Below, piece by piece: positions 2,766 through 61,501 of a stretch of DNA of 64,000 nucleotides (positions are counted from its first letter, which is position 1; every line of letters begins with the position of its first letter). This DNA is from Polytrichum commune. Lineage: Eukaryota > Streptophyta > Polytrichopsida > Polytrichales > Polytrichaceae. The stretch is from assembly GCA_950295325.1 (NCBI GenBank), contig OX485809.1, forward strand, positions 5,582,001-5,646,000, given 5' to 3'. The position numbers were made by a program, and so were the translations under genes. Below the pieces are notes generated by a model. It was not told where the DNA came from, ran no database searches, and was given only the letters and a program-made list of their open reading frames with translations.

Positions 2766-3707
2766 CCGTAGGTTCATAGCTGGTTCGACACATGTTAGTC
2801 GAATAATTAATTAAATTCAAAAAGTAGGTTCGGCACCTAAAAATAGTATATTCATATTTTCGGCAATTTTCTCTTTTAATTTTAAAATTTTCGGATTAAA
2901 TTCATTTCCAATTTTCTATTTAAGCTTATATCTTGTACATCTCTCTTGCATTGAATGACAAGTAAGATGTGAGTGAAGAATTGAGAATGCTCTGTGCTTT
3001 ATGCAAGTAGAGTGGAGTTGTGTTCAACAATGCATATGGGATATGTAAACTTTGAGGTGAAGCACCGAGTTAGACTTCATTTTTATAACACGCATAACTT
3101 TTGCATAGAGTCTTCAAATGACATAAAATTTGTTGGAGGTGAAAGATTACTTGATTTCTAAACTTTCCTTAGACCAACAAAATTCCAAAAAAGTTGATCT
3201 TCTATGCACAAATGAGCTCCGAAAAACTGTTATGAACGCATTTTAATTGTTTGATCTTTACACGGCTGCAATGTTTTGTCCATATCTTTTGCATAAAGAC
3301 TTATTTTGACACAAAACTTGTTGGAGGTGGAAGAAGGATTGATTTCTCAACTTTTGTTAGTTGGACAAAATTCTAAAAAACTTCATCTTCTATGCTCAAT
3401 TGGACTCCAAAAATTTGTGTACAACACATTTGAAAAGCCTCACCTAGAGTCTTGCTACTTTTTAACCCATATTCTTTGTGGACTAATGTAAGTGAGCTTG
3501 ATTACAAAAGGAGCACCTTCTCTCTTTCAAAATTCACATATGCTTCCACTGTAAGTAAAACTCTAGTGAGAAGTAAAAATTTCTAACTTTTCGGCAATTT
3601 TGAAAAATAATTAATTGTGTATTCGGCAAAAAATGCCAATAATATTCCAAAATTTTCGGCATCTATTTTTAGAATTATTTTCTGTCGAACCAGCTATGAA
3701 CCTACGG
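2766..3707. mobile_element. 942-bp TA-flanked element with 25-bp terminal inverted repeats
   Basis: The left end (2766-2790) begins CCGTAGGTTCATAGCTGG and the right end (3683-3707) is its exact reverse complement. Each end is flanked by TA (2764-2765 and 3708-3709), the target duplication of Tc1/mariner-type elements. The interior encodes no transposase. It contains two diverged direct copies of a block of about 180 bp (about 3088-3260 and 3280-3430, each with the string cttgttggaggt or a close variant). I read it as a non-autonomous Tc1/mariner-like element; the superfamily rests on the TA alone. Confidence 0.7.
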
Positions 3708-6045: not shown

Positions 6046-6314
6046 AATAAGGCTCAGATAGATAGATAGATAGAAACTCCGGTCCCTTTTTAGCAAGGGG
6101 CCGGCGTGAATAAAGTGTCCGTTCGTAATGCCAATGACCCGATGCCCACTGGACAAGGGGACATTGGGACAATACTACTCTCCCCTTTCGAGGATGGACA
6201 CTATAGTGACACACTATACTAGTTCCTAGCTAGCCACTAGTGCCTTGAAGATACCGGACATGGTATCCCCCCAAAGGGCTTTGAGGTACCCATACAACAA
6301 GGTAATAAGGCTCA
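6046..6314 (-). mobile_element. SINE-like insertion, 5'-truncated copy with 11-bp target duplication
   Basis: The body at 6057-6303 is almost identical in reverse complement to about 39121-39364. It is flanked by the perfect direct repeat AATAAGGCTCA at 6046-6056 and 6304-6314. On the minus strand it ends in a (TATC)n tail (6056-6074), and its 5' end is missing relative to the 39-kb copy. Truncation at the 5' end, a simple-repeat tail and a variable-length duplication are the marks of LINE-mediated retrotransposition. The 3' half resembles the 3' UTR of the LINE at 34180-34328. Confidence 0.8.
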
Positions 6315-7003: not shown

Positions 7004-7429
7004 AAAAAAAACACGGGGAGGTCACTTCATTGTCAAGTTGACACCACGTGCGGACAAAGTTTGCTACCCCTATATTATATGCCATATATAATTTTAAAAT
7101 TTATGATATTTTTTCTACATATACATAACCATTGATAGTATCTTTTGTATAATTTTTTGAAATTTTTAGTCATCTTTATTTTTTTAGTAATTGTTTTAGT
7201 TCAATTTTGTGTCATTCTAGTTAGAAATGGTATGTTTTATGAAAAAAAACAAATCATCAAATTTAGTTACCACTTTTGACTATGTCATAGGTACTGTGTA
7301 TATCTACTCATGAAAAAAATTTGATAAAATTTTGACCCATATTGGTGGTGCAACTTACCAAAAGAAGATTTTTTTTGGTCGCACGTGGTGTTCAACTTGA
7401 CAATGGAGTGATCTACCCGTGAAAAAAAA
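7004..7429. mobile_element. hAT-type MITE, copy 1 (410 bp), with 8-bp target duplication
   Basis: The body is 7012-7421. It starts CACGGGGAGGTCACTTCATT and ends with an imperfect inverse of this, giving terminal inverted repeats of about 43 bp. It is flanked by A8 on both sides (7004-7011 and 7422-7429). An A8 duplication alone would be weak, but two sister copies (9883-10304 and 52445-52854) have unambiguous 8-bp duplications. Eight-base duplications and termini starting CAnGG fit the hAT superfamily. The AT-rich interior has no coding capacity. Confidence 0.85.
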
Positions 7430-9874: not shown

Positions 9875-10312
9875 GTGGACACCACGGGGAGGTCACTCCA
9901 TTGTCAAGTTGAACACCGTGTGCAAACAAAGTTTGCTACCCCTATATTACATGCCATAGATAAATTTAAAATTCATTCTATTTTTCTATATATACATAGC
10001 CATTGATAGTATCTTTTGTATGTTTTTTGAAATTTTTAGTCATCTTCATTTTTGTAGTAATTTGTTTAGTTCAATTTTGCGCCATTCTAGTTAGAAACAA
10101 TATGTTTTATAAATTAAAAAAAATTATCAAATTTAGTTACCATTTTTTTACAATGTAATAGGTACCGTGTATATCTACTCATGATTTTTTTTTAAATAAA
10201 ATTTTGACCCATTTTGGTGATGCTTTATGTAAAAAGTTGGATTTTTTACATGTAAAGTGTTCGCACGTGGTTGTTCAACTTTACAATGGAGTGACCTCCC
10301 CGTGGTGGACAC
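9875..10312. mobile_element. hAT-type MITE, copy 2 (422 bp), with perfect 8-bp target duplication
   Basis: The body is 9883-10304, flanked by GTGGACAC at 9875-9882 and 10305-10312. The ends begin and finish CACGGGGAGGTCACTCCATT and its inverse, and the interior is colinear with the copies at 7012 and 52445. It is more diverged internally than those two are from each other. It sits about 65 bp upstream of a LINE fragment. Confidence 0.92.
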
Positions 10313-10369
10313 CCAAATGTTAATGTTCATATACACAAAATACATGGTTAACCACACGAAGAATATCTT

Positions 10370-11064
10370 CTGACCCCTCACATATCAAAACCCCAACTGC
10401 ACTCTCTGCCATCTCAACAACATGGACACATGGCCCCACTTCTTGTCCACATGCCAAACCCCATACTTAAAAGGCCCAAGAATTGCACGCCACAATGAAG
10501 CAATACATCTCATTACCCAAACACTAGAAGTTAACAAAAGCACCCGGTTCCTCACACTGACAAATGCATGCAAACTTAACAACAGACGACCCGAAAAAAC
10601 AATTCCAAATTGGCTTCTTAAATGCACATGTTCACAAATAACATGCCATGCCAAGCCAGATTACGACCATATATCCTATGCATAATCAGAGCCCCGAATC
10701 ACACACAAACTCCAATACCACCTTCGCCTACACTCGCAATCCAACTCATTGAATTCACATACTACCACGACAAATACCCGGAACAAACCCTCACACACAA
10801 GCACGCTAAATATGACCCACTAATTAACACCGTACAAAATAATGGATGGAAAAGCAACCCCTCATTATCATCACAGCCAGAGTTAGAGAAACCATACATG
10901 AACACTCCATTAACAAACTTATCAATCTAAATATTGCAAAACCAACCACCAAAACCCTCATAAAAAACATACATCAAAATGCCATCAAATATGTCAGGTA
11001 CCTAGTCCTAAACAAAAAGAATCTCAAAAACGACCAAACACCTGGGCCCCCCCCCCCCCCCTAA
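10370..11064 (+). pseudogene. 5'-truncated LINE ORF2 fragment: zinc motif plus restriction-like endonuclease
   Basis: Translating in shifting frames gives the C-terminal end of the LINE protein at 33445-34106. First comes a CCHC motif (C-x2-C-x9-H-x4-C, starting near 10395 and running through MDTWPHFLSTC), then PNWLLKCTC, then LRPYILC where the family has RPDILC, then IQLIEFTYYHD and ITARVRETIHEH. The key Asp of the PD motif is Tyr here. The frames change around 10640-10680 and again near 10850. It ends in a C-run next to TAATAA at about 11062. It keeps the four CCHC residues that the full-length copy has lost by a small deletion, so it is useful for inferring the ancestral motif. Confidence 0.85.
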
Positions 11065-22667: not shown

Positions 22668-22716
22668 CTCCCGGAAGGTAAGAAGTACGCCTACCCTAAT
22701 GCTTGGTAAAACATGA

Positions 22717-23507
22717 CCGTATTTTGAACATGCTTTTGTACAGAAGTTCACCGAGGGATTCGGGATGAGGTGTTGCTAAGGGGCTCCGAAACCCTGGGGA
22801 GGTGAGTGACTGTGGAGTAGCCGTTGAGATCGGTGTGTGTGCTGCTAGGAGCTGGACTTGCAGTTACCCCGCACGCATTTGAGAACAGTTGGTCAGGGTG
22901 TTTGAAGAGGTGCTTAGAAGTGTTGGAGGGGTACGTGTGAATGCTCAGTATTAAATCCAGAAACTCAATCAGGTAGGAATGGCAGTTAGATTTCATGATT
23001 AGAGAATTCTGAAGAGCTGGGGCTCGGTTGGTAGCATTGTGATTGAAAACTCCATCCTCCTGTCTTGAATTCTCTAGATCTGAGATTAGAAGCACCACAT
23101 TTGGGTGGAAGCGAAGCACCGAGGACATAGACACACTGATACTCCCGGCCACTGCTCCGAACCAGGAACACATTGTCTAGAAAATAGATCATACATCACA
23201 CAGAAGGAGCCTTCTTTCTCTCATATACATCGCAAGCACATTCTCCCTCTTTCTTCAACCCAGCACAGACACATCCCCTATAGATCCAGTCCTTAACCTT
23301 AGTAGGTCACACAACAAGTTAGATTTACTTGCAAGCAGGAGCGGCGATCCAAGAGCAGCGGGAGCAGAGGTCTACAACATCGATCTACACCGAGTGATAA
23401 GCGGCCCACCCCAAGTTGACAAGACTGACCCTCACAACTCCCGGCGACATCATCAACAACTCCGAAATCAAAGATCTGACAGAGGAGAAACAACATATCC
23501 GATCCCA
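22717..23507 (+). promoter_or_regulatory. LINE 5' UTR
   Basis: The stretch between the left target duplication and the first ORF1 methionine is GC-richer than the flanks. A full-length LINE must carry its promoter here, but I see no recognisable core element. ORF1's frame stays open upstream to 23394 without an ATG. Confidence 0.6.
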
Positions 23508-25250
23508 ATGGCCTTGTCGAAAGCCTTCGAAGTGGACGAAGACGTCATGGAGGTAGACTCTCCCTCTCAGAGTCTGAAAAAACTCCTAGCTGATAAGGCT
23601 AAGAACCAGCCCAAAGGAGCCGCAAGCAGGAAGAGGACCAGAGATCGTGTCGGGACATCCCCCTCCTCAACTTCCCAGCAGAGACAGTCGCCCCGAACAG
23701 CAACTCAAGGGCCGGAACTCATCTCCAAACAGAAGCTCAAACTCTGGCTTGGGTTCGAGGCTATGGAAAAGCTTGCGGCAGAGCAAGGACTGGACGAGCT
23801 GTTCACTGACGAAACCATCGCTGATAGAGTCACCAGAGGCATCCCCCGCAAAGAAGCAGAAGAACTAGAAAACGTAAGCATTTCCTACCCCAGAGTGCCG
23901 CAGATACTTTATCCCGGTGAGAGAAATGATGGACCCCCTGGGCAGCACCTTAACCTTACTCAACTCCCATCTGAGATTGAAACTGACCCTATCTCTTGCA
24001 TGTCTTTGGACTTCCAAATTGCCATTCATTTTCAGCTCCCTAACAACCCCCTCTTCCATAATCATGTAAAGGAGCTTGTTAAGAAAAGATTGAATACTAT
24101 GCAAATTCCATTAGGCACCAACCTTATTGAACCCATTTCAGTTTTATGCATGAGTATTAAGAGGGGTGGGGAAAAGGGAGTATGGGCTGGAATAGTCAAA
24201 CTTCACCTCCTTCATCCCGAAACTGATGGAGTTGCCCTACTCACAGGCCTTAGACCCTTCATTCTCCACCTTGAGCCCCACTCAAATATTGGAAGCCTTG
24301 GTAAGGTGTGTAAATCATATCACTCAATTGCTCGAAACAACAACCTCTCCATCAAAATCTCTAATGACACATTGATTGGAGTGTCATCCCATGCCCTCTT
24401 TCTTGATATACTAGAAAGTAGTTTTAGAAGAGGCCATGATTTTGAGATAGTAGAGGTGCAAAAGAGCACCCCTAATAACCATGCTTACATTGTTGCTCCC
24501 TCCCCCCACCAAGCCAAGAAAATCCAAACCCTCCAAGTATCAACACATCAACTAATCCTTGAAGGCCAAGTGAAGAAAGGCCCCTCTCTCACCTTAGAGC
24601 AAAAGGTAAAGAAAGAAGCTCTTACCCTCACCTTCTACAACCTCCCCATCTTGATGAATATTGATGATACTTCTCTTGAAATTTGCAAAATTTTGGGAAC
24701 CAAAAATGTTGTATCTATTTGGTTCCACAAACAAGATGGCTTGAGACATAATGGAAGTGCAAATGTGGAATGCCTTAACCCCATTGTGTATAGGAAATTC
24801 GTAGGGAAAGAAGCAAAAATCGGAGCTTACCATGTGGAAATTACCCCACACCGTCGAAGTCTTGAAGGTAATGAAAAACCCTCCAAAGAATTACTAGTCA
24901 AATTTGGTTTTGAAGATACTAACATTTGTTTGGTAAACACAATTGAAGCAATCCAAAACCAAAGCCAAGGGGAAGCAAGTGCAACAAAGGGAGACGTTTT
25001 TATCATCACGAAGGAGGCAATTGAAGAAGGTAACAAAAAACTCAAAACCGAATTACACAAAGACATGAAGGATTTGAAAGATGATATAGTAAAAGAGGCC
25101 CACATCTACGCGGATGAAATCAATGATAAATTGAAAGAGCAAATGAGGGACATCCAAAGCACTTTGACCTTGGCACTTACAGGAATGCAACAAATTACAG
25201 GCTTGGTAAGCCCGAACCTTATGCTAAACGACCAGCCAAATGTGGATTGA
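23508..25250 (+). CDS. LINE ORF1 protein (RNA-binding-like, C-terminal coiled coil)
   Basis: The frame is 580 codons from the first in-frame ATG (MALSKAFEVDEDVMEV) to TGA, with no interruption. The N-terminal 60 residues are acidic then Ser/Lys-rich, with a basic cluster (SRKRTRDR) that could be a nuclear localisation signal. Around residues 375-440 the string LTLTFYNLP followed by IWFHKQDG and SANVECLNPIVYRKF looks like an RRM fold (beta-1 FYNLP-type, then an aromatic beta-3 strand). The last 80 residues contain heptad-like Leu/Ile spacing (KLKTELHKDMKDLKDDIVKE), a likely coiled coil for oligomerisation. LINE ORF1 proteins coat the element RNA, so this is the expected role. No CCHC zinc knuckle is seen. 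The frame is intact even though ORF2 is broken. The stop overlaps or abuts the ORF2 region with no spacer. Confidence 0.85.
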   Translation: MALSKAFEVDEDVMEVDSPSQSLKKLLADKAKNQPKGAASRKRTRDRVGTSPSSTSQQRQSPRTATQGPELISKQKLKLWLGFEAMEKLAAEQGLDELFTDETIADRVTRGIPRKEAEELENVSISYPRVPQILYPGERNDGPPGQHLNLTQLPSEIETDPISCMSLDFQIAIHFQLPNNPLFHNHVKELVKKRLNTMQIPLGTNLIEPISVLCMSIKRGGEKGVWAGIVKLHLLHPETDGVALLTGLRPFILHLEPHSNIGSLGKVCKSYHSIARNNNLSIKISNDTLIGVSSHALFLDILESSFRRGHDFEIVEVQKSTPNNHAYIVAPSPHQAKKIQTLQVSTHQLILEGQVKKGPSLTLEQKVKKEALTLTFYNLPILMNIDDTSLEICKILGTKNVVSIWFHKQDGLRHNGSANVECLNPIVYRKFVGKEAKIGAYHVEITPHRRSLEGNEKPSKELLVKFGFEDTNICLVNTIEAIQNQSQGEASATKGDVFIITKEAIEEGNKKLKTELHKDMKDLKDDIVKEAHIYADEINDKLKEQMRDIQSTLTLALTGMQQITGLVSPNLMLNDQPNVD

Positions 25251-25439
25251 CCACAAATTGCCGAGGCAAAAAGTATTTATTGCAATACTCCACTGTATAC
25301 ATACACGTATACATATATAATATTATACACAGAATAAATACTAAATACCACAATACTACACATGGTATTCTTCAATGTCCAAAATACTATTTGAAAAACA
25401 AATACAAATTCTGTACCTCATACCTGTACAAACTCCATC

Positions 25440-26120
25440 AAAAAAAGACCCAACCAAAATACAGTACCCATCCAAAATACAATATCTACTCAAAATACAG
25501 TTTCCATCCAAAATACAGTTTCCATCCAAAATACGGTTCCCATTCAAAATATAGTACCCATCCAAAATACAATACCCACCCAAAACATAGTACTAACCCA
25601 AAATATAATACCTACCGGCCTCGCCACATAACTAATTACAAACACCACTTCACAAACAATTGGAAACCTAACTCAATACCAAATCAAATACCTAAAAACT
25701 ATGCAAAACCACACCCCTTACCCAAACAACAAGAAAACATAATACCCACCCTACCCAACATTTTCTCTACAACAAAACTTGCACTCATTAAATATCAAAA
25801 ACTAAATAAGAAAAAACCAAAAATACGTCACTTATATGGATACTACTTCACTACATCAAGCACATCAAGTATGTATCAAAAATCTACCCACAAACCAAAT
25901 TACACTAATCACCCATACAATAACAACTACCCAAAATACACTTTCCGAACAAAATACAACACCCTCCCAAAATATACCTCTCATCCAAAACACAAAACAC
26001 AAAGGCCTCACCCAAAATACAGATATTACCCAAGAAATGAATGCCACCCAAAATACAAAGCATACCCAAAACATAGCTTATATCCAAAACAAAGACCACA
26101 TCCAAAACTCAAACTCCATC
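25440..26120 (+). repeat. 18-bp minisatellite encoding an HPKYxx hexapeptide repeat
   Basis: Two clusters (about 25470-25615 and 25920-26120) of an 18-bp unit of the type ATCCAAAATACAGTTTCC. Translated in the frame that is open from 25247 they give repeats such as HPKYSF, HPKYNT, HPKHST and YPKQRP. The unit length is a multiple of three and the reading frame is kept across both clusters, which argues that the repeat was translated. The region between the clusters holds the first copy of the longer linker module. Confidence 0.85.
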
Positions 26121-27056
26121 ATAAACACCCCCCCCCATCCAAACCTTAACCTCCATCCAAAAATTTGCTTCCAAGCAAAACTCTACTTCCACTCAAAATA
26201 TAAGATTCATCAAATAAACAAAATGGCCTCGGCCTACCAACCTCGCCACAAAACAAAGTACCGATATAACTCCACAAGCAAGAGGAAGCCTCACATAACA
26301 CACACCCTACCCAACCATTCTACCACAACTAAAAACGAACACATAAAATACCAAAAAACAAACAAAAAGCCACAAATAATCAACTCCCACCCAAACCTCA
26401 AACCCTATCCAACACTCCACTGCAAAGTAAAACTCAACTTTCACTCAGAACACAAAATCTGCCCCAAAAACCAACCAACCTCAGCCTACCAGCCTCACCA
26501 CAAAACTATTAATAAATACCACCCCACAAACAAATGGAAACCTAACAAAACAACAAACCACACACCTAAAGACAACACATACACACACTTTTCATCCATA
26601 CATTTAGGAAACATAACAGCCAATCCCTCTACTGTACCCAAACTCGTACCCATAAAACACCAAAAAGCAAATAAAAATAAATCAAAAACACTCAACCCAT
26701 ACCCATACCAAAACCTCAAACCACACCCAAAACTTTGCCTCACAACACTACCTCACTTCCACACAAAACACAAAATTTCACCCAAAAGCAAAATGGCCTC
26801 GGCCTACCGGCCTCGCCATAAAACTAATAACAAATACCACTTCATAAACAAATGGAAACCTAATGCAATAACAAATCACATAACTAAAGACAACACACAT
26901 GCACATTTCTTACCCAAACAATTAGAAAACATAACACCCGCCCTACCCAACCTCTTTACCACAGCCAAATTCATAACAATAAAATACGAAAAAACAAATA
27001 AGAAAAAACCAAAAATACTTCACTTCCGTGGATACTACTTCATCAACAAGTTAACT
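25612..27056 (+). repeat. Four-copy linker module upstream of the 2A motif
   Basis: Four diverged copies of a module begin at about 25615, 26236, 26489 and 26802. Each starts YRPRHKT or YQPRHKT (codons ctaccggcctcgcca or variants), continues with NKWKPN, then a segment like LPKQLENI, then a K/Y-rich string such as IKYEKTNKKKPKI. The first and last copies also share GYYF. Only the last runs into the 2A-like motif. The first copy is in a different frame from the others because of the shift near 26130. The function is unknown; the sequence is basic and low in complexity. Confidence 0.75.
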
Positions 27057-27095
27057 CTACTACAATGTGGAGACATAGAACCCAACCCCGGACCA
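27057..27095 (+). other. 2A-like ribosome-skipping motif
   Basis: The codons read LLQCGDIEPNPGP, which fits the 2A consensus D-(V/I)-E-x-N-P-G-P together with the usual upstream hydrophobic-Cys/Gly part (LLxCGD). In 2A peptides the ribosome fails to join the final Gly and Pro, giving two proteins from one frame. Here the break would fall between 27092 and 27093 and release a downstream protein starting with Pro that carries the APE, RT and later domains. 2A-like sequences in the same place, just before the APE domain, are known in trypanosome L1Tc/ingi elements and some animal non-LTR elements. Confidence 0.85.
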
Positions 27096-27743
27096 ATGCC
27101 TAATGTTCTCCAGACACACCCCGCTACACACAAAAAGCGAGCTAAACTATATTTCATCCCAAACACAATAAAATTACAACCCGAATACCAACACATAGCA
27201 AACACATTTGCCCCCATACTCAAGCACACACACCCCCTACACCACCACACAATCACTACATACCCACACCTACACCAATACATCATAACACAAAGTCATT
27301 CTCCGCTAACCCATATGTTATATGCTCTTACCATTACTATACACCCCTCAATAAACACATGCAACAATATACTAGCCCAACCCCATATTTATTACTTTAA
27401 CAACATATGGACAAACACATTACTCATCAGACTAGCCAACCTTTCCAACCCCCCCGAGCGACACATTCTAACACCACATCCATACACAACATTTACAAAC
27501 AATAACTAAGATATAATACACCCCAAAAATTCAATACATAAAGAATTATATAAATTTATCCACAACCAAAAGATCACGCTTACACCCACCACTCTTCAAA
27601 GCAAATTCCCTTTTCTCCCAAATCAATTAATAACTGAATCACTCCGTTGCCTAGAAAATATTAACGAATACTCACACCCGCCCCCATCCCCAGTCACCCC
27701 CACACCAGAGCCTAGAACCAACACTAACACCAATCACGAAACA

Positions 27744-28520
27744 AATATAATAACTTGGAATGCCTCCTCACTCAACACCGCACTACCAAACTTACAAAAC
27801 CTAATCAATAACTCTCTAAACAATACAGCACTCATACATATCCAAGAAACCAAACTTACAGCAAACAAATCCACAAAATACATACAGAACCTATTCCCTG
27901 AGTTCAAACTCATTTTTAACAAAACACATGCTCTCACAAGATGCATACAACAAAGATTGCCCTACACCCCTGGAAGAGGCGGCCTACTCACACTTATCCA
28001 TAACAAGTATGCATTCCCTGGAAATGTCATCAAAATTCCCACGCCGGCAAACATCTCCCCGTATTTACAAATAATCAAAATAAATAACCATCCCTCAATA
28101 CCATGGCTAATCGTACACATGTATATGCCCACACACTTAGAAGACACAGGCCTTATTCCATTTCTCAAAACCGAAATCACTAACCAAATCACTACAAATC
28201 CAAACCACATATACATACTATGTGGTGACTTCAACAGAGACATTGCACTCCAAGGAAGACATACTAACAACACTCACACCCCTCCCCAAGAAGAGGATCT
28301 ACAATGGAAACACTTTACCACATCTCTCAACCTTGAATACATATCAACTAACACCAGTTTTTCCCGACAAGGGGGCTATAATTACACATCAACAAGTCTA
28401 ATAAACGGTTTCTACATCCAATCTCCAGACAATAGCAAATTTACTTCCACTACAAACACAACCATGAACCTAAACTCAGACCACTACCCAGTCACCTTAC
28501 ACATCCCACACAACACACTT
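27744..28520 (+). other. APE-type (exonuclease-endonuclease-phosphatase) endonuclease domain of the LINE
   Basis: The frame has ITWNASSL at 27750, the metal-binding QETK at 27843-27854, GDFNRD at 28221-28238 and SDHYPV at 28476-28493. These are the characteristic motifs of the apurinic-type endonuclease of LINEs, in the right order and spacing. The catalytic Glu, Asp/Asn and Asp-His pair are all present. The frame is unbroken between them. The enzyme nicks target DNA to prime reverse transcription. Confidence 0.92.
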
Positions 28521-29429
28521 ATAGCCAGACCCCCACCCCCCACAAACATACCACCAAATAGAATACTAAATCCGATACCACCAAAAAACATAGAAAACTT
28601 TAACATAATATTCTTCGAAGAAACTCTACACAACTAAAGGAACTTACCACACTACTAGGAAATCATCAATATTTAATCCCTGATCAATGGTAAGAAGCCT
28701 GCACTTCATTAGATAACATTATTAATAAAATTTCAGAAACTATTGAAAAAACCTGTAAAGCCGCCCCACTACCCAACCTCACGTACAGAACATCACAACA
28801 AGGAGGGTTTCTACCACGAAAACTAGCTAAAGAGTGGAAAAAACACCTTACCACATACCACCTCATTAGGAAAACTATATACATTACACAACACGACCCA
28901 CACTGGCTAACCCACCCCATCCTAAACGAAATCCGAAACCACCAATATGTAAGTATCCCACACCCACCCATAACAACCACATCTACTAATGAATGGATTA
29001 ATGTCATAGCTGTCATTGCAAAAACTGCCAACAAAGAAGCCAGGAAAATCACCACCAAATACACTAAAGACTGTATACTAAAAGCTGTATCAAAATACCG
29101 TCAGATGTATGAAAAGAGTCCCAAAAAATAAACAGAAAAGTCTTCAAAAACTCCGAAACCTCACCTCTGGACTCCATCATGGACAGACACAACAATATAC
29201 TAACTAACCCTAAAGACATCACATCAGAAATATACACACAACAATTCATCAGTAACCGCCCAACAGTCCCTACATGCCACTACCAAAATACCCACCCACC
29301 ACACTGCACATGCGGAGTAAGGCAATATCCATGGCACGACTTAGACGGATACACAATTGACAAACGAGGAGAACCCCAAACTCCCCTACATACATACTTT
29401 GACCAAGAAACCTACGACTTCTGTCTCAA

Positions 29430-30300
29430 AAATCTAGGAAATAACAAAGCCCCAGGCCCTGATAAAATTCCCAACTCAATTCTAAAAAATATGCCCCCAC
29501 GTTTTCACAAACTACTCTTCCTATTCTTTAAACAATGCTACAAACAAAAATAAATTCCCGCATTATTGGAAACCAGCCTAACAATTTTATTATACAAAAA
29601 AAGAAATCCATCACATCTTACAAACCATAGGCCTATTGCACTAGCTAACATCATATATAAACTTTATACAAACACATTAACATCTATACTATCCGCATAC
29701 GGAGAAAGACACCAAATACTACATGATAGTCAAGAAGGATTCAGAGCAGAAAGAAGTACCTCTAGACAAATTCAATTACTTATCGCAGCACTAGAAGACG
29801 CAAGATTCACGAATCAAGACATATACATACTTTATATCGACTTCAAAAATGCCTTCGGCTCCATTGACCATGCCAGACTCTTAGCCATAATGAAAGATCT
29901 AGGATATCTCACTGACTCCATAAACCTCATAGGAAACATATACGCACAATCCTCCACCATATATATCGGGGAACACTTCGACAAAACCTTACCGATCCCC
30001 ATCCAAAGAGGTACAATACAAGGAGACACTCTCAGCCCATACTTATTTATAATATTTTTAGAACCCCTCCTTAGATGGTTACAACAAGGGGACAATGGAT
30101 ATACTTTTAGTACATCCAAAACCAAAATCTCATCAGCAGCATATGCAGATGACCTAGCGGCAATTGCCAACAAACTAGAATCACTACAAACACAACTAAA
30201 CAAATTAGACAAATTATGTGAATGGGCAGGAATGGATATCGGAATATCCAAGTGTGCAGTGACTGGATGCCCAAACAAATCCAAACTGAATCCCATAACT
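29430..30300 (+). other. Reverse transcriptase domain of the LINE
   Basis: NKAPGPDKIPNS marks the start (RT block 0/1). After a compensated frame break come NHRPIALANIIYKLY, DSQEGFRAERST, YIDFKNAFGSIDH, RGTIQGDTLSPYLF and AYADDLAAIA, with the catalytic YADD at 30142-30153, then GMDIGISKC. All three catalytic Asp (FKNAF region Asp and the YADD pair) are kept. The thumb region follows. This is a standard non-LTR RT. Confidence 0.95.
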
Positions 30301-32016
30301 TTCAAAGCCCTAATCCAAGCCACTAACATAAATTATCGAAACCAACCTATACCAACCCTACATCAACACGAACCATACACCTATATAGGAATAAACCTTG
30401 CACCCTCACTCAAATGGAAAACACAAATAAATACCACTACAGCTAAAGTAATCAAACAATGTCAAGCTCTCGTTATATGCCCAGCAACTATGAAACAAAA
30501 AATCAATATGGTAGATACAATCATACATACTGGAATAGCATACAGCTTCTACGCAGTACCATATTCCATACCGGCTATCAAAAAACTTGACAAAAGAATT
30601 ATAGCACTCCATAAAACGATATGCGGAATACCCAAATGTACATCTAACATTGCTACACAACTCCCGCATAACCTATTCGGCATCGAAGCATTCTCACTAC
30701 AAAATGCCTCTTTAAGATGTATTGGAGAACAACTACAAAATGCCCTAAATGATAAAGGAAGAATTGGAAAAATCTATGCCGGCCTAATACAATACATACT
30801 TGCCAAATATGGAGGATCTAAGGATTTAACCCGCATTAAATACCACCACTGTGTCAGATCACCTATCACTAGAACACTATTCTTGCTCAAGCATAAAGCC
30901 GGAGTCCACCTAAAAAGTACTATAAACAACTTCCTACTAAATCCATCCCCACTCGAAATTGCGTGGACTCAAGAAGCACAAGAACTACACGGCCTAAGCC
31001 CAAACACTTCACTTAAATTACTACACAAATTGCTAGAACATAATATAATAAAACTAGACCAAATAACCATGCCTAATGGCACCACTCTAATGAACTCAGA
31101 CGAATTTAAAATCTACCATTCCAACCCTTCTAAACTCATCAAAAGTGCACTAAACATTGCTAACCAACTATTTTGTCACCCACCCTGTGACCAGGAATGC
31201 CCCCTAACATGTCAACACCACCATCCACCACGATCCCTCAAAACCAAATACACAATAAGACACCAAAACATCCTACCTCATTTACCGACTCCCCCTATAC
31301 ACCCTCCAAACCCTCCCATTCCCCATCTACCCCCTCCTCCCAACAACATGATTAAAAACCCCCGACAATTTCCCATACACAAAATACTCGATCACAAACA
31401 ACGACAATCCAACGACCCTAACAGAATAAAAAGAACAGTCACATCATACTTATGCCAATGGACTACAACAAATAACAATACATATAATAAATGGCAAACC
31501 CAAAGAGACTTATACCCTTATTGTGATGCCAACACAAACAACCACAACACCGACCTACTCTCCCAATACTACACAAGAAAACAACACAAACATTTCCTAA
31601 ACATTATTAATGCCTACTTCTCCATAGAACAACAAAGAGACACAAGACATGTCACACCTACCACAATTATTCCACTGGCACACATTTCTATTAATGAATG
31701 CAATCCAGAAAATGACATCGAAACAAATTCTGACACTATCCAAATACAATTTGACGTCGCTCACATATACGAAGATAGTGGCCGACACCTCATCACCATC
31801 CCAAAAACTAGATTAATATGGTTATGGCAACAATATCAACAAACAGAACATTCCACTCACAGACTAGAACCACCTACCCAATCATTCGAAACTGAAATTG
31901 TATGGCTATACCAAAGATACAAATACCGCATTCCGAAAAATGACCCACTCAAACGAGCCCAATACACAATTCCAATCCCAATATTAGATCTTTTAATAAC
32001 CACATTTAATATCAAC

Positions 32017-32420
32017 CACTCATATTTTTCATCTCCAGTTACATGCCCTACACAATTCACCCAATTATACTCACCATTCGCACGAGACATAATATTTGGA
32101 TCCCTCGGGAAAGCATTTGACCATAAATGGCAAGGAATTGGCTACGCCCACCCCCACAACGCAACGGAATTACAACAAGCTATCCACTGGGCTCGCCTGG
32201 CAGCCAAAAACGACCCATATACAATCACTATACTCATATCACCGGATACTTATTGGTACAAAAACTTCAACCCATACATAGGTCCATTCCAAGACACGCA
32301 CGTTATCGCCCACTTTGCCGCCGATACGATCACATGTGAGGAACCCACAATACCCCCAGAACTCAATACTACAAGGAAAGAACCATCTACTATACAAATA
32401 TTCTGCATCCACCATCAAAC
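32017..32420 (+). other. Unclassified domain between RT and RNase H, methyltransferase-like in pattern
   Basis: The residues run FSSPVTCPTQFTQLYSPFAR, then DIIFGSLGKAFDHKWQGIGYAHPHN, with AIHWARLAAKNDPYTITILISP and then WYKNF. The order (small-residue strand, W-x-G before an H/N-P-x aromatic site, a helix with WA, and a hydrophobic strand ending in P with a following WY) recalls the part of Dam-like N6-adenine methyltransferases around the NPPY site. I have seen similar blocks in algal retroelement proteins with NPxY where this has AHPH. If it is a methyltransferase relative, the catalytic motif is not conserved. This is inference by eye. Confidence 0.35.
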
Positions 32421-32649
32421 CAACAACATTGGTACTTACGAACAAATGAAGCAACTCAAGGACCTAGCAAATAATCTCCAAATAACACAAAGTCACACCC
32501 AAATTGCACCACCCACCCCTTCAAATACCACTGTTAACCCCAGTAAAAAATGGTCTAAATTAAACTACCCACAAATAGTCGCACATAACACCACACTTGC
32601 CCCACAACTCCCAAATTACCAGACAAATCTACCTCTAAAATTCCACCCA

Positions 32650-33100
32650 CAATTTAGCTACTACACTGACGGTTCCTTTATAAAACCCAAAGAAATTGCC
32701 CCTGGAGTATGGAGAAGAGAAAGAGCTGGATATGGTATTTATAGCCCCAAAGGTTTAAATATTACCAAAAGACTACATGGACATCAAAACATATTACGCG
32801 CAGAAATGATAGCTATACACAAAACACTAAGAATAATCAATACACAATATCCTAACGAACCCGCATTCATATTCACAAACAGTCTAAATGTATTATACCT
32901 ACTCAACACACAAATTAAACACCCCACCCTTCATAATAGCCACCCAGACCAAACCACACTTGCCTCCATGGTACAAATACTTCAACACCGGACACAACCA
33001 ATCACATTACACAAAGTTAAAGCACACGTCAACATTGACGGCAACGAAAAAGCCGATAAACTAGCAAAAGAAGGATTAGAATTAGAACACAGAGTTGCCA
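32650..33100 (+). other. RNase H domain of the LINE with an altered catalytic Asp
   Basis: YYTDGSF carries the first Asp, ILRAEMIAIHKTL the catalytic Glu, and KAHVNIDGNEKADKLAKEG the His and final Asp. The third acidic position, usually D in F-x-D-S, reads FTNSLN, with an Asn codon at 32878-32880. Without this Asp the enzyme would be expected to be inactive. A single G-to-A change explains it. RNase H is kept in several plant and algal LINE clades. Confidence 0.85.
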
Positions 33101-33444
33101 CCCACCCATATGAACATGCCCACGCCACCCCATGCTATTACCAAAAGGATGTTTGGGCCTCGATGATAGACGTTCCAGACAAAGGTCCAGTCAGATTCTT
33201 AGAGAAACAAATTAAAAAATATGACAGGGAAAATAACCTAGCAATCATGGCCACACACACCCCCAACATTTGTAAATGGACAGAAAATGTAGATATAGAC
33301 AAGGAGCTGTCGAACGAATTTTGGGAAAATCCTTCAATCACCGACAAACAAAAATCATGCCTCATTAAATTCCGCACAGGAACTTACATGGGTAATGCTA
33401 GGAAACAACTGTTTTTCGGCTGCCAAAGATATCCCTCTATTACG

Positions 33445-33960
33445 TGCCCCATATGTAACTCAAATGAACCAGATACATGGCTACATGTAAACATCAACAT
33501 ATACACTCACTTCGAGTTAAAAGACATAACAAAGCAGTGGGGGAAATTAGGAAACTCTTAATCTCATCCGAAAAATCCCGATGCTTTATTCTCATGAATG
33601 CTGGCACCTTCAATAACAATCCTCAAGAAAACACAGTTCCCAATTGGCTACTCCCCTGCACATGTGGTACACAAAGATGCCACTGTAACGCAAGATTTAG
33701 ACCTGATATCCTTTGTGTTAGGGGACTACCATATCAAAACGTCCCTCCCGTAGACATTGACCCTAACCTCACCATACAATTTATTGAATTTACATACTGC
33801 AATGACAGATTCTCCCCAGAGGCAGTTGAAGCAAAAAATAACAAATACAGACCACTAATTGCTAGTATCGCCTCCAGAGGATGGAAAATCGAACCACTTA
33901 TTGTCATCACTGCTGGTGCCAGAGCTACTGCTCACATCCCATCTATGAAATTACTCGAGA
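33445..33960 (+). other. CCHC plus restriction-like endonuclease (RLE) domain of the LINE
   Basis: CPIC and then DTWLH begin a C-x2-C-x9-H-x4-C motif whose last Cys is lost in frame because ACAT-flanked sequence is missing at 33483. After the frame change, PNWLLPCTC and CHC precede RFRPDILC (PD at 33702-33707) and, 26 residues later, IEFTYCND (Glu at 33786). Then come NNKYRPLIASIASRGWKI and PLIVITAGARATAHI. In R2, R4, NeSL and CRE elements the RLE has a CCHC motif, then (K/R)PD, then (D/E)-x-T and a similar C-terminal hydrophobic strand. The 26-residue PD-to-E gap is longer than the usual 12-14. Confidence 0.8.
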
Positions 33961-34106
33961 CTAACTTCAAAATGCCTATGCCTACCATCAAAAATACATT
34001 TAAAAATATTAATACCATCGCAATACAATATGCCATGTCTATCCTCCTCCACAAAAGGAGAATAGAAAACCACCAACCGCTTCCCCTCACTCTAGACCCC
34101 CCATAA

Positions 34107-34328
34107 CTTAAAACTTAAAAGTTACAGGTAAGGGTCACTGGGTATAATATAAGGTGTGGTTCCGTGTTACTGGTTTCTTGTGTCTAAAGTGTCTACTCTC
34201 GAAAGGGGGGAGTAGATCTTTTCCTCCATACCCTTGTCCTGTGGGCATGGGATTGGAGGTGGATCGAACAGACACTTAACTCACGTCGGTCTCCTCCGGA
34301 GACCGAAGTTGTTTCTCTCTCTCTTCTC
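34107..34328 (+). other. LINE 3' UTR and tail
   Basis: The sequence from the ORF2 stop to the right target duplication. The last 150 bp (CTCGAAAGGGG...GAGTAG, CCCTTGTCC, GTGGGCAT, GAACAGACACTT) match the 3' half of the SINE-like elements at 39200-39340 and 6060-6200. It ends tttctctctctcttctc, with no poly(A), so the RT may recognise a structured 3' end. Confidence 0.85.
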
Positions 34329-34341
34329 TGGTAAAACATGA

Positions 34342-35833: not shown

Positions 35834-36000
35834 CATAACACTAATCATATTCATAACAATGTTATGTGGGATTGACAATATGTCACAAAATATTCTTGGA
35901 TATTCTCCACGTTCAAATTGAACATGGGAATATCCATGAGTATTCTATGGAATATTGTCAATCCCACATGATAGTGTTATGGATCTTAATAATGTTATGA
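35834..36000. mobile_element. 167-bp foldback MITE, copy 2 of the TCATAACATTATT family
   Basis: The arms are colinear with 19216-19338: ATGTGGGATTGACAATAT on the left and its inverse on the right, with outer TCATAACATT. The loop is longer than in the first copy. No target duplication can be resolved. Confidence 0.65.
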
Positions 36001-38329: not shown

Positions 38330-39400
38330 AAAGCCAAAAGTTGGTCCAAACATATTACCAATGTCTACAATCTACCATTACCGCTTATTTTCCCTCATTT
38401 CAACACTCAAAACCATGACATGTATCATGACACTGTTGGTTCTAGCCTAATCGAAATCTAGTGCCAACCTTATCGAAGTTTTGGTACCCTTTAGATTGCC
38501 GACGAGGTCCGGATCAGGAGTAGGTGCCTCTACCATATACCAACCCAACAATGGGTTTTACCACACCTGAAGTTTTTTTAAAACCAAAAGTTGGTATGAA
38601 CATATTATTCATGTCTACAATCTACCATACCCGCTTATTTCCCCTCACTCCAACAACAGTCAATACCACGACACGTATCATGGCACTGTTGGTTCCGGCC
38701 TAATCGAAATCTAGTGCCAGCCTGATCGAAACGTTGGTACCCTTTAGATCGCCGACGAGGTCCAGATCAGGAGTAGGTGCCTCTAGTATATACCAATCCA
38801 ACAATAGCTTTTACCGCACGCGAAGCTTTTTCAAAGCCAAAAGTTGATCCGAACATATTACCGATGTCTACAGTCTACCATAACCGCTTATTTGTCCTCA
38901 CTCCAACAACACTCAAAACCATGACACGTATTATGACACTATTAGTTCCGGCCTGATCAAAATCTAGTGCCAGGCTGATCGAAATTTTGGCACCCTTTAG
39001 ATTGCCGACGAGGTCCGAATCGGGAGTAGGTGCCTCTACTATATACCAGTCCAATTGTGGGTTCTCTTCCCCATGCCGGCGTGGTGCTCACCACCTTAGT
39101 CCACCCAACTATGGTGGGGGGTCCTTGGACCTTGTTGTATGGGTACCTCAAAGCCCTTTGGGGGGATACCATGTCCGGTATTTTCAAGGCACTAGTGGCT
39201 AGCTAGGAACTTGTATAGTGTGTCACTATAGTGTCCATCCTCGAAAGGGGAGAGTAGTATTTGTCCCAATGTCCCCTTGTCCAGTGGGCATCGGGTCATT
39301 GACATTACGAACGGACACTTTATTCACGCAGGCCCCTTGCTTGAAAGGGGTTGGAGTTTCTATCTACCAGTCCAAGAATGGGTTTTACTGCACCCGAAGC
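38330..39400. repeat. Tandem repeat, unit about 250 bp, interrupted by a SINE-like insertion
   Basis: Units begin at about 38330, 38580 and 38833 (aaagccaaaagttggtcc or variants), each with cgacgaggtcc, aggagtaggtgcctct and ccaacaatggg. The third unit stops at 39054 inside atataccagtccaa and resumes after the insertion at 39365 with taccagtccaagaatggg, continuing to about 39400. Unit-to-unit identity is roughly 85 percent. No open frame is kept across units. Confidence 0.85.
39044..39375 (+). mobile_element. SINE-like insertion of 310 bp with perfect 11-bp target duplication
   Basis: The body 39055-39364 splits the tandem repeat and is flanked by TACCAGTCCAA at 39044-39054 and 39365-39375. 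The host repeat gives an independent check on the boundaries. The 3' part (about 39225-39345) resembles the LINE 3' UTR, and it ends in TTTCTATC, a short version of the (TATC)n tail of the 6-kb copy. I found no convincing tRNA-type A and B boxes in the 5' half. It is either a SINE that borrowed the LINE tail or a short 3' end of a sister LINE subfamily. Confidence 0.85.
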
Positions 39401-44128: not shown

Positions 44129-44471
44129 GCTAGATCACATCTTCATTCGGTTGGGCCCCGCCCTCCCACGCCTCTTGCACTGCCTAATCTTCATGTTTGC
44201 ACATGCGTGGGAACTTTTTCCTCGTTGGGAACCAATGTGACAATACCCGGTCATTTAAGCCATTATACTCTTTTCGCATGTGAAGGAACTCCATCAATTA
44301 ACTTGGGAATAATGAATGGGATGTCAACTTAAATATTTGTAATTTTACCCGGTTTATTTTCACATTGGTTCCCAACGAGGAAGAGTTCCCACGCACATGC
44401 GGGCAGGAAGGCCAGGCAGTGAAGGAGGTGTGAGAGGGGCATGGCCCAGCCGTATGAAGATGTGATCTAGC
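44129..44471. mobile_element. 343-bp foldback element with about 110-bp arms
   Basis: The arms begin GCTAGATCACATCTTCAT and share CACTGCCT, CATGCGTGGGAACT and CCTCGTTGGGAACCAATGTG. They surround a loop of about 120 bp. No target duplication or coding sequence could be seen. Confidence 0.7.
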
Positions 44472-52436: not shown

Positions 52437-52862
52437 CATGAGGTCACGGGGAGGTCACTTCATTGTCAAGTTGACACCACGTGCGGACAAAGTTTGCTAC
52501 CCCTATATTACATGCCATATATAATTTTAAAAATTATGATATTTTTTCTACATATACATAACCATTGATAGTATCTTTTGTATACTTTTTTGAAAAATTT
52601 CGTCATCTTTATTTATTTTAGTAATTGTTTTAGTTCAATTCTGTGTCATTCTAGTTAGAAATGGTATGTTTTATGAAAAAAACAAATCATCAAATTTAGT
52701 TACCACTTTTATTTATGTCATAGGTACTATGTATATCTACTCATGAAAAAAATTTGATAAAATTTTGACCCATTTTGGTGGTGCAACTTACCAAAAGAAG
52801 ATTTTTTTTGGCCGCACGTGGTGTTCAACTTGACAATGGAGTGATCTACCCGTGCATGAGGT
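52437..52862. mobile_element. hAT-type MITE, copy 3 (410 bp), with perfect 8-bp target duplication
   Basis: The body 52445-52854 is nearly identical to the copy at 7012-7421 and is flanked by CATGAGGT at 52437-52444 and 52855-52862. Same orientation and terminal sequence (CACGGGGAGGTCACTTCATT). High identity to copy 1 suggests recent spread, while copy 2 is older. Confidence 0.95.
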
Positions 52863-58600: not shown

Positions 58601-58700
58601 GTAATTTTTCATCTGCTGGTAACCTCGGCGATATTTGTGGAATAGTTGTGGCTGTGATAGTTGTAGTTTGGGGACTGCTGATTGGTCCGTAGCTGCGCAG

Positions 58701-61501
58701 GTGGACAGCGTGCTCTGAGTGTAAGACAAACTAGGGAGGAGAAGGGGAAGCTGGTTCGCTCGAAGTCTAGGAGGCCAAGAGCATGGATGCCTCCATCACT
58801 ACAGCCTAACCTCACCGACGGAGTGCGCACGCGTGCTTTGGCGGCACAGGTGGCAGAGTTCGAGCAGCAGATGGTGAATGACGACGCCATCTGCGAGGTG
58901 TTGGCGGATTTTGGTGGGTGCGAGGGCTTGGAAGACTTTGTGGGGCCTGTGAAACAACATTCCATTGGCAGCATGGACACGATGAATGTCAACCTCTGGG
59001 ACTCTGTGTTCCGCAACGACGCTTGGAGGACATCGGCGCCTATTTGTAAGCACACGGGCTTTGGAGCTACACACCCAGGCGGATCATTGGACAGGCCGGT
59101 TCTTCTTGAGGTGGGAATGTTGCCGGAGCGGTTCCAGGGGACGTATGTGCATTGGAGTTGTAGGCGGGCTAGGTGGGCCGTGCTTGTACCCAATCGATTT
59201 TTGTCTGAGCATTCGTTCCACACGGGCGACACACCTTCTTGGACGCAGGGGGATGTCATAGGTGAGGGTGTGCACGCCGCGACTGGGAAGAGGATGGTGT
59301 TGTGCGACCTGGGAGGATATGACACAGAGTGCCACCTAAACGAAGAACACGTGAGAGTTGCAGCTGGGCCGCAGGTGCGTGCTTACGGCAGCGAAGGTGG
59401 ACATGGCTACGGATGGTGGAAGAGGCAGCATTGCTTCAGCCCCGTTCCAGACTCGGGCGGTGTGTTTGCAGGTGCAGCCGCGAGTCTGAGTGCCACAGTG
59501 CTTTTGGGGGGAATTGCAAGCGGTGTGGGAAGCGGCACGGGACCTGGCCTGACTGAGCTGGTAGACGAGAACATCGATGGTACGCAAGCGTCTCCCACAC
59601 AACCTTTAACATGCCCCATCGTTGATTACGATGCACCCTCCGACATTGAGGGTATCGATGGTACGCAAGACTCAATAGCCAGAGACACTTTTCCCAAGGT
59701 AAGTATTGGGCTACCGGAATATATGCTCTGCTCTAACACATCTGTGCACTCAGCCGGTGGGGTGGATTCGGGGATGGTGTCGGTGGACTCCAGTGGTGAC
59801 GAGTGGCTCCCAGAATTCTGCGATGTTTTGGAGAGCTTAGACTCGGATTATGATGTCGATAATTTGGATGAGAGTGACCCGGCTGCACCTGGCCTGGAAC
59901 GATGGTGCATGACCCCGGATTCTTTCAAGCCCGTACACATGGATGGTGAACAGCTTGCGCAATACTATAGGAAAGAGTCGTGGAATTCCGGAAGCGTGGA
60001 CTTTGTCGGGACACGTGACAACTTCACGGGCCCTCCGCCAGGTTTGAAGTCCCCGCGATCTGAAGGAATCCCTCTGCCGCATACGGTTTTTGATTTGTAC
60101 TGGACTGATGCCTGTGTGGATCGAATTGTACTTGAGACCAACAAGTATGCGAGGGCAGTTCAGCCACCTGTGGAGAACGAGTTGCCACGCACAAAGGGCG
60201 GCCTGTCGTGGAAGGATGTGAATCGCGCGGACATTCGTGGATGGTTAGGGATTTGTATCCTCATGGGATGCAAGCGGCTTCCAAGCGTGAGGCAGTATTG
60301 GATGCGTAGCCAGCCTTTCCTGTATTGCCCGCTTATATCGTCCATCATGTCGCTAGAGAGGTGGGAGCATATCATGCGTTGTTTGCATCTAGTGGATAAC
60401 AACAGTATAGTGAGGGATGTTAGTGACCCTAAGTTTGACAGGATTGCGAAAACTAGATGGCTTGTTGAAATGTTTGTGAACGTTTCAAAGGACATTTATA
60501 ATCTCGAAAGGGAAATAACTGTGGATGAGTGTGTCATCCCCTACAAAGGGCGTTATTGTTTCATTAGGCAGTTCATGCCGGATAAGCCTGTAAGATTTGG
60601 AATTAAGGTGTGGTTGTTGGCGAGCTCCAAGAGCCGGTTTGTGTGGCAGATGGAGGTCTACTTCGGAGAGGGAACAGGGGCGGGTCCTCATGGGTTGGGC
60701 TACCACGTGGTCGAGCGGATGGTTAGGGGTCTTGAACACCGGGGTCATTGTTTGGTGATCGACAATTTCTTTGCAAGTGTAAACCTCTTCCATGAGCTAA
60801 TGTGCAAGGGGATATGGGCCACGGGCACCGTGCGCCGCACCAGCAAGAACTTGCCTAATGGCCTCTATCGGGAGCCTGACTCCAGTGTGAGAGGATCCAT
60901 GGTTATCTGGAACCACGTCCATCGTCAGATGGGCGTTGTCTCTTGGCAGGATAAGAAGATGGTGACCCTCCTGAGCACCGCAGCCGCCCCGTGGGAGCCG
61001 AATAGTAAGGTTCTTCGACGGATACCTGGGCTTCGAGGGCAGCTGGTGGTGCCATCGTCTCCCATGCACCGGCAGTATGTTGAGTACATGCGCGGTGTTG
61101 ACGTGACAGACCAGCTCCGTGGCAACTATTCATCACAACTGCGGTGCCACAAGTGGTGGGTGAAAATTTTTCACCTCATTGTGGACCAGATGATGGTGAA
61201 CTCCTACGTCACATGGGTGAAGCAAATGGAGGACCTCGGATTGCCAATTACATCACATCTGGCCTTCAAGATAGCCGTCGGGAAATATCTTGCCACAGAG
61301 GCAATACAAGCCCGGCATCCTGTTCACGGCCCTCCTGATGGTGTACATCGACACCACCACCCTGTCCACACACTACGGCGGTCCAAATTGAAGCGACGAT
61401 GTGTGGAGTGTGGCCGTGTTCAAAAGTGGTTTTGCAGCTCTTGTGGACACAAATGGATGTGCCCGGAAACCTGTTACCAGGCACAACACGAGAGGTTATA
61501 G
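58701..61501 (+). CDS. piggyBac-family DDE transposase, complete catalytic core
   Basis: Open for about 933 codons to TAG. Upstream splicing (intron 58601-58700) is likely; if the exon stands alone, the first ATG is 58787. Residue blocks match the DDE_Tnp_1_7 family: LYWTDACVDRIVLETNKYA and WLGICILMGCKRLPSVRQYW at the start of the core, then TVDECVIPYKGR (first Asp codon 60524), CLVIDNFFASVNLFHELM (second Asp, 60761) and GVDVTDQLRGNYSSQLRCHK with WW (third Asp, 61100). The last 40 residues form the Cys-rich domain (RCVECGRVQKWFCSSCGHKWMC...CYQ) that in known members binds DNA ends. About 430 residues precede the core, with Gly/acidic low complexity and a block near GDVIGEGVHAATGKRMVLCD that may be a Tudor-like fold. 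No stop or frameshift. No TTAA-flanked terminal repeats were found, so it may be an active element or a domesticated gene. Confidence 0.9.

Follow-up and report, generated by a model that had tools for sequence, protein, structure and literature searches.

A decayed LINE, probably of the Dualen/RandI clade, with two endonucleases and a PCIF1/CAPAM-like domain in Polytrichum commune

In this study we describe a long interspersed nuclear element (LINE) from Polytrichum commune that carries two different endonucleases and a domain related to the methyltransferase PCIF1/CAPAM. It lies in a stretch of 64,000 nucleotides (GenBank assembly GCA_950295325.1, contig OX485809.1, positions 5,582,001 to 5,646,000 of the forward strand), here called the window; all positions are those of the window, on the plus strand unless stated. 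Flank comparison places the whole LINE at 22717-34328 (11,612 bp), between target-site duplications of 13 bp at 22704-22716 (TGGTAAAACATGA) and 34329-34341, and its 3′ tail is common to repeats resembling short interspersed nuclear elements (SINE-like repeats). A second 13-bp match is present between the flanks, and 1 of 2000 random 40-mers equalled the 3′ end. The original prediction had confined the element to 25251-34106 with an open second open reading frame (ORF2). The 13-bp duplication it reported is present, outside those limits, and the element is longer and includes ORF1. ORF2 (26223-34106, beginning at ATG 26223 or 26793) no longer reads through, with two stops in frame and no fewer than three frame changes; since frame changes are present too, another genetic code was ruled out as a reading of the stops. 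Some catalytic-motif positions also diverge from those of relatives. The window LINE is a dead, decayed copy, full-length but inactivated. Close relatives among the related proteins (P numbers) are P0001 and P0002, with 75% and 87% identity over the parts covered. A second, diverged LINE remnant of the same type, apparently truncated at its 5′ end, lies at 10287-10861 (+) and consists of a C-terminal nuclease part, 35-49% identical to P0003.

ORF1 (23508-25250, first ATG to TGA, 580 aa) has a start that matches P0121, and a Pfam search of it returned no domain. Its 27 homologues include a protein of the moss Ceratodon purpureus (47% over 25%), the sole named land-plant relative. The interval from ORF1 to the first endonuclease holds degenerate 18-nt repeats (25432-26216) and several tandem copies of an ORF2 leader (25611-27042; 25611-25850 and 26803-27042 are 80% identical, with more units near 26223 and 26478). 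The final leader unit terminates in a 2A-like ribosome-skipping motif (27027-27095, RGYYFINKLTLLQCGDIEPNPGP) whose last residues, ending at 27095, read LLQCGDIEPNPGP. The motif fits D(V/I)ExNPGP and recurs with a similar upstream context in the two close relatives that reach so far, as LLQCGDIEPNPGP in P0074 and as LLLSGDIQPNPGP in P0046, where it reads DIQPNPGP. Ribosome skipping at this putative motif may be proposed from the sequence. Because 11 other clade proteins with at least 130 residues before the endonuclease lack it, the motif marks the subfamily of the window LINE. LINEs such as L1Tc likewise hold D(V/I)ExNPGP in frame with retrotransposon proteins; judging by titles in PMC4981915 those are of the apurinic/apyrimidinic endonuclease (APE) type, whereas the window LINE also has a restriction-like endonuclease (RLE).

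Downstream of an in-frame TAA at 27507-27509, ORF2 encodes an APE domain (27750-28493), a reverse transcriptase (RT) region (29440-30753, broken at 29551-29553 by a TAA in frame), RNase H (32656-33078), a CCHC zinc knuckle that a frame change disrupts (33445-33488) and an R2-type RLE (33486-34106; RPDI at 33699, IEF at 33783 and a downstream K). All of these domains had been predicted, and the presence of both nucleases is confirmed, the RLE with a small lead over bunyavirus nucleases. What had been missed is a PCIF1/CAPAM-like methyltransferase-fold (MT) domain between RT and RNase H, at 31726-32478. The element shares CCHC, RHN and an RPD...E...K nuclease with R2 LINEs, and the best matches of its RT among solved structures are to these; however, in R2 the RLE is the only endonuclease, while here APE, RNase H and the CAPAM-like domain are present as well.

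The relation of this domain to the PCIF1/CAPAM methyltransferase domain is seen both in sequence and in predicted fold. Since profile and fold agree, a false positive of the Pfam model PF12237 was ruled out; this model, named as a WW domain, describes a CAPAM-like methyltransferase according to an excerpt of PMC7641849. Our MT profile derives from 25 rows, so that matches to those rows are by construction, and in P0148 the Pfam match is weak (E 0.00099, below the cut-off). Unlike the cap adenosine-N6 methyltransferase PCIF1/CAPAM, which it resembles in fold and sequence, the LINE domain is fused within a polyprotein and lacks the catalytic motif NPPF, which none of 30 rows contains (the count covers rows with scores above 45, and 5 of 35 lacked the catalytic columns). 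Because relatives keep the fold without NPPF, the domain most likely has no catalytic role and serves, next to the RT, as a module for binding RNA, an RNA/DNA hybrid or the cap. Alternatively, the domain might still be an active methyltransferase whose motif has diverged (9 of 30 rows read NPEY) and modify the RNA cap or the cDNA of the element itself, for example against host defence. The methyltransferase fold and the active-site loop, SP followed by L or V in 24 of the 30 rows, would agree with such a role; so would the parts seen of PMC10544176, in which PCIF1 substrates also include RNA/DNA hybrids and DNA, and of PMC5890265, in which other retrotransposons have DNA methyltransferases. 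However, besides the absence of NPPF, the catalytic Asn position holds Asn in just 12 of the 30 rows and His in 9, and the window subfamily has HPH (window, P0003, P0005, P0008), HPN (P0001) or YPT (P0017) at the motif. In the same excerpt (PMC10544176), PCIF1 is inactivated by altering that Asn and Phe, and we regard an active enzyme as rather unlikely.

Possibly, and here our confidence falls a little short of even, the eukaryotic mRNA-cap methyltransferase PCIF1/CAPAM was captured by an old LINE clade as a whole and became a pseudo-methyltransferase, which, placed between RT and RNase H, would hold on to capped RNA or to the hybrid of RNA and cDNA. If true, dual-endonuclease LINEs would own a module for recognising the 5′ end or the hybrid that is unlike those of other LINEs. 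The domain is present wherever the ORF reaches RNase H, and this gives a testable handle on RNA or 5′-end recognition. It also means that at least 18 environmental proteins labelled PCIF1 are retrotransposon proteins. Dual endonucleases in a LINE are already known; titles and abstract beginnings contained no report of PCIF1/CAPAM in a LINE, which suggests that the domain as a clade-wide part is unreported, within a partial coverage of the literature in which key works on Dualen and on eukaryotic adenine methylation may mention it. Four clade members (P0023, P0029, P0042, P0050) also bear the PHD finger label PF00628, in P0029 at residues 738-784, between RT and CAPAM-like domain. P0064 of Pleodorina starrii has the precomputed Pfam label PF02099, presumably Josephin.

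For the phylogeny, the best 120 of 238 protein search matches were used, and the RT set came to 128 rows, 11 of 139 RT-matching rows being too short. A third protein search, from an alignment of 13 proteins, returned 17 matches, P0148 and outgroups among them; scanning viral contigs turned up four pattern matches, none of them a relative. In an 88-row RT tree drawn from the 128 (34 MT-bearing rows, 2 R2 rows, and the rows after P0074 minus four) the MT-bearing rows form one clade (99), which is partly a matter of choice because rows without MT before P0074 were excluded. A 21-row group of R2 and RLE-bearing LINEs has support of 98 in the same tree, its join with the MT clade being unsettled. 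A more careful tree of 66 chosen rows holds a 40-row clade (100/98) of 28 MT-bearing rows and 12 with ORFs that end early; the presence of MT needs 13 changes there because the 12 relatives that lack an MT match, all with ORFs reaching no more than about 450 residues past the RT, are interspersed. The window RT falls in a six-row subclade (100/100) on a long stem of 0.47. In these unrooted trees, drawn at midpoint, the RT lies in the vicinity of RLE-type groups and away from those with only APE.

The Dualen/RandI clade was reportedly described by Kojima and Fujiwara in 2005. From the excerpts of PMC3636483 and PMC4640811, its members combine APE with a PD-(D/E)XK nuclease and RNase H and have an RT near RLE groups, and in the latter Dualen is a suggested bridge from RLE- to APE-type LINEs. 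The window LINE agrees in all of these: APE precedes the RT, an R2-type RLE follows it, and RNase H is present. It differs in its 2A motif, its repeat-rich stretch before ORF2, its moss-related ORF1 and its CAPAM-like domain, the last not being mentioned for Dualen in the same two excerpts. One member of the 40-row clade, which lies close to R2 and to LINEs with an RLE, is P0064 of Pleodorina starrii, and Pleodorina is kin to three relatives of Chlamydomonas. These three carry Dualen according to part of PMC8226300, and Dualen has expanded in cryptophytes other than Guillardia theta according to part of PMC12747079. Because of its architecture, its tree position and the Pleodorina starrii member, the window LINE is best filed as Dualen/RandI, so that the membership originally proposed gains support. 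That it belongs to a separate clade with the same layout, not kin of Dualen, seems improbable: the long stem of its subclade and a 2A motif lacking in 11 other clade proteins would speak for this, but it nests within the strongly supported clade that holds the alga sequence.

The joint occurrence of the two nucleases is borne out by relatives that hold both in one polyprotein (P0148, P0058, P0036, P0022). P0148 is a single ORF of 3,601 aa with APE (1245-1497), RT (1877-2285), MT (2741-2950), RNase H (3101-3242) and RLE (3368-3582), both nucleases being complete; in P0058 the APE is complete and the RLE match shorter, and in P0036 and P0022 the APE is cut N-terminally and the RLE complete. An RLE match was found in 15 of 18 relatives. 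The window copy is split over several frames and another LINE remnant lies at 10287-10861, but a nested or chance joining of an APE-type and an RLE-type LINE, against which the first prediction had already argued, can be dismissed as extremely improbable, as relatives hold both nucleases within one ORF, the order is the same in P0074 and P0001, whose contigs are equal in length (13,377) and presumably one and the same, and a single pair of duplications encloses the whole.

The RNA of the 3′ untranslated region (UTR) is predicted to be structured with a terminal hairpin at 34178-34309. Two further sites in the window match about 110 nt of this UTR (72-74%). These are SINE-like insertions at 6057-6303 (minus strand, ending in (TCTA)n and shorter at its 5′ end) and at 39055-39364 (plus strand, its 5′ end inferred and the flank found only on a wider 5′ search). 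They are 95.8% identical over 238 bp, both carry the 3′ tail of the LINE, and they are flanked by 11-bp repeats, TGAGCCTTATT and TACCAGTCCAA respectively. The tails have a predicted structure in common, with 94.2% of cells paired. Both sides had changed in 10 pairs, a number that none of 500 shuffles reached (their mean was 3.5), and sliding the partners left 0-3 such pairs. The LINE tail and one SINE-like tail folded better than shuffles, with z -5.3 and z -3.9. Rfam gave no match in the window. In Chlamydomonas, SINEX tails are paired with RandI tails (PMC3747384, in excerpt), and these families are likewise short insertions bearing the 3′ tail of a LINE. The window tail differs from what that excerpt gives in sequence and repeat, and has covarying predicted RNA pairs. 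These data fit a model, by analogy, in which the LINE enzyme would recognise the tail RNA and move short elements in trans, and the common 3′ structure makes template recognition testable.

Taken together, we are highly confident that the locus holds a full-length, inactivated dual-endonuclease (Dualen/RandI) member with ORF1, 2A, APE, RT, a PCIF1/CAPAM-derived domain, RNase H, CCHC, an R2-type nuclease, a structured 3′ UTR and a target-site duplication, for which the following mechanism might be envisaged. Ribosome skipping at 2A would free the enzyme from a short leader, and the enzyme would bind the folded 3′ UTR. One nuclease would open the target for target-primed reverse transcription, the CAPAM-derived domain beside the RT might bind RNA, the RNA/DNA hybrid or the cap without catalysis, and RNase H would remove the template RNA. 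The second nick may fall to the other nuclease, with duplications of 11-13 bp as the outcome.

Several points weigh against this picture. What the two nucleases and the CAPAM-like domain do is our inference. Many relatives are cut short: APE and RLE share one ORF in 4 proteins and are both complete only in P0148, while the RLE is unmatched in P0005 and P0038, which stop within RNase H or shortly behind it, and in P0071, which runs on for about 200 further residues. The RLE model is only slightly ahead of bunyavirus nucleases of the same fold (12.1 vs 9.9). The RT tree was built without a curated Dualen/RandI sequence, the Pleodorina starrii protein standing in for one, and P0150 and P0151, which have RT and RNase H and no MT, APE or RLE match, form the sister pair to the clade. 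The RT pieces of P0001, P0003 and P0005, of the 18 relatives, are too short for the trees, and these are relatives by identity. The RNA alignment comprises three rows of which two are near copies, that is two independent lineages, and the structure was derived from the same alignment.

Elsewhere in the window, an ORF of 939 aa at 58682-61501 (+) encodes a transposase (DDE_Tnp_1_7, E 3.1e-70), which we take to be of piggyBac type. Long imperfect palindromes at 35834-35999 and 44129-44471 match their own reverse complements at 80% and 70% identity, respectively, and three copies of a dispersed repeat, about 410 bp long and 81-96% identical, lie at 7012-7421, 9883-10304 and 52445-52854.
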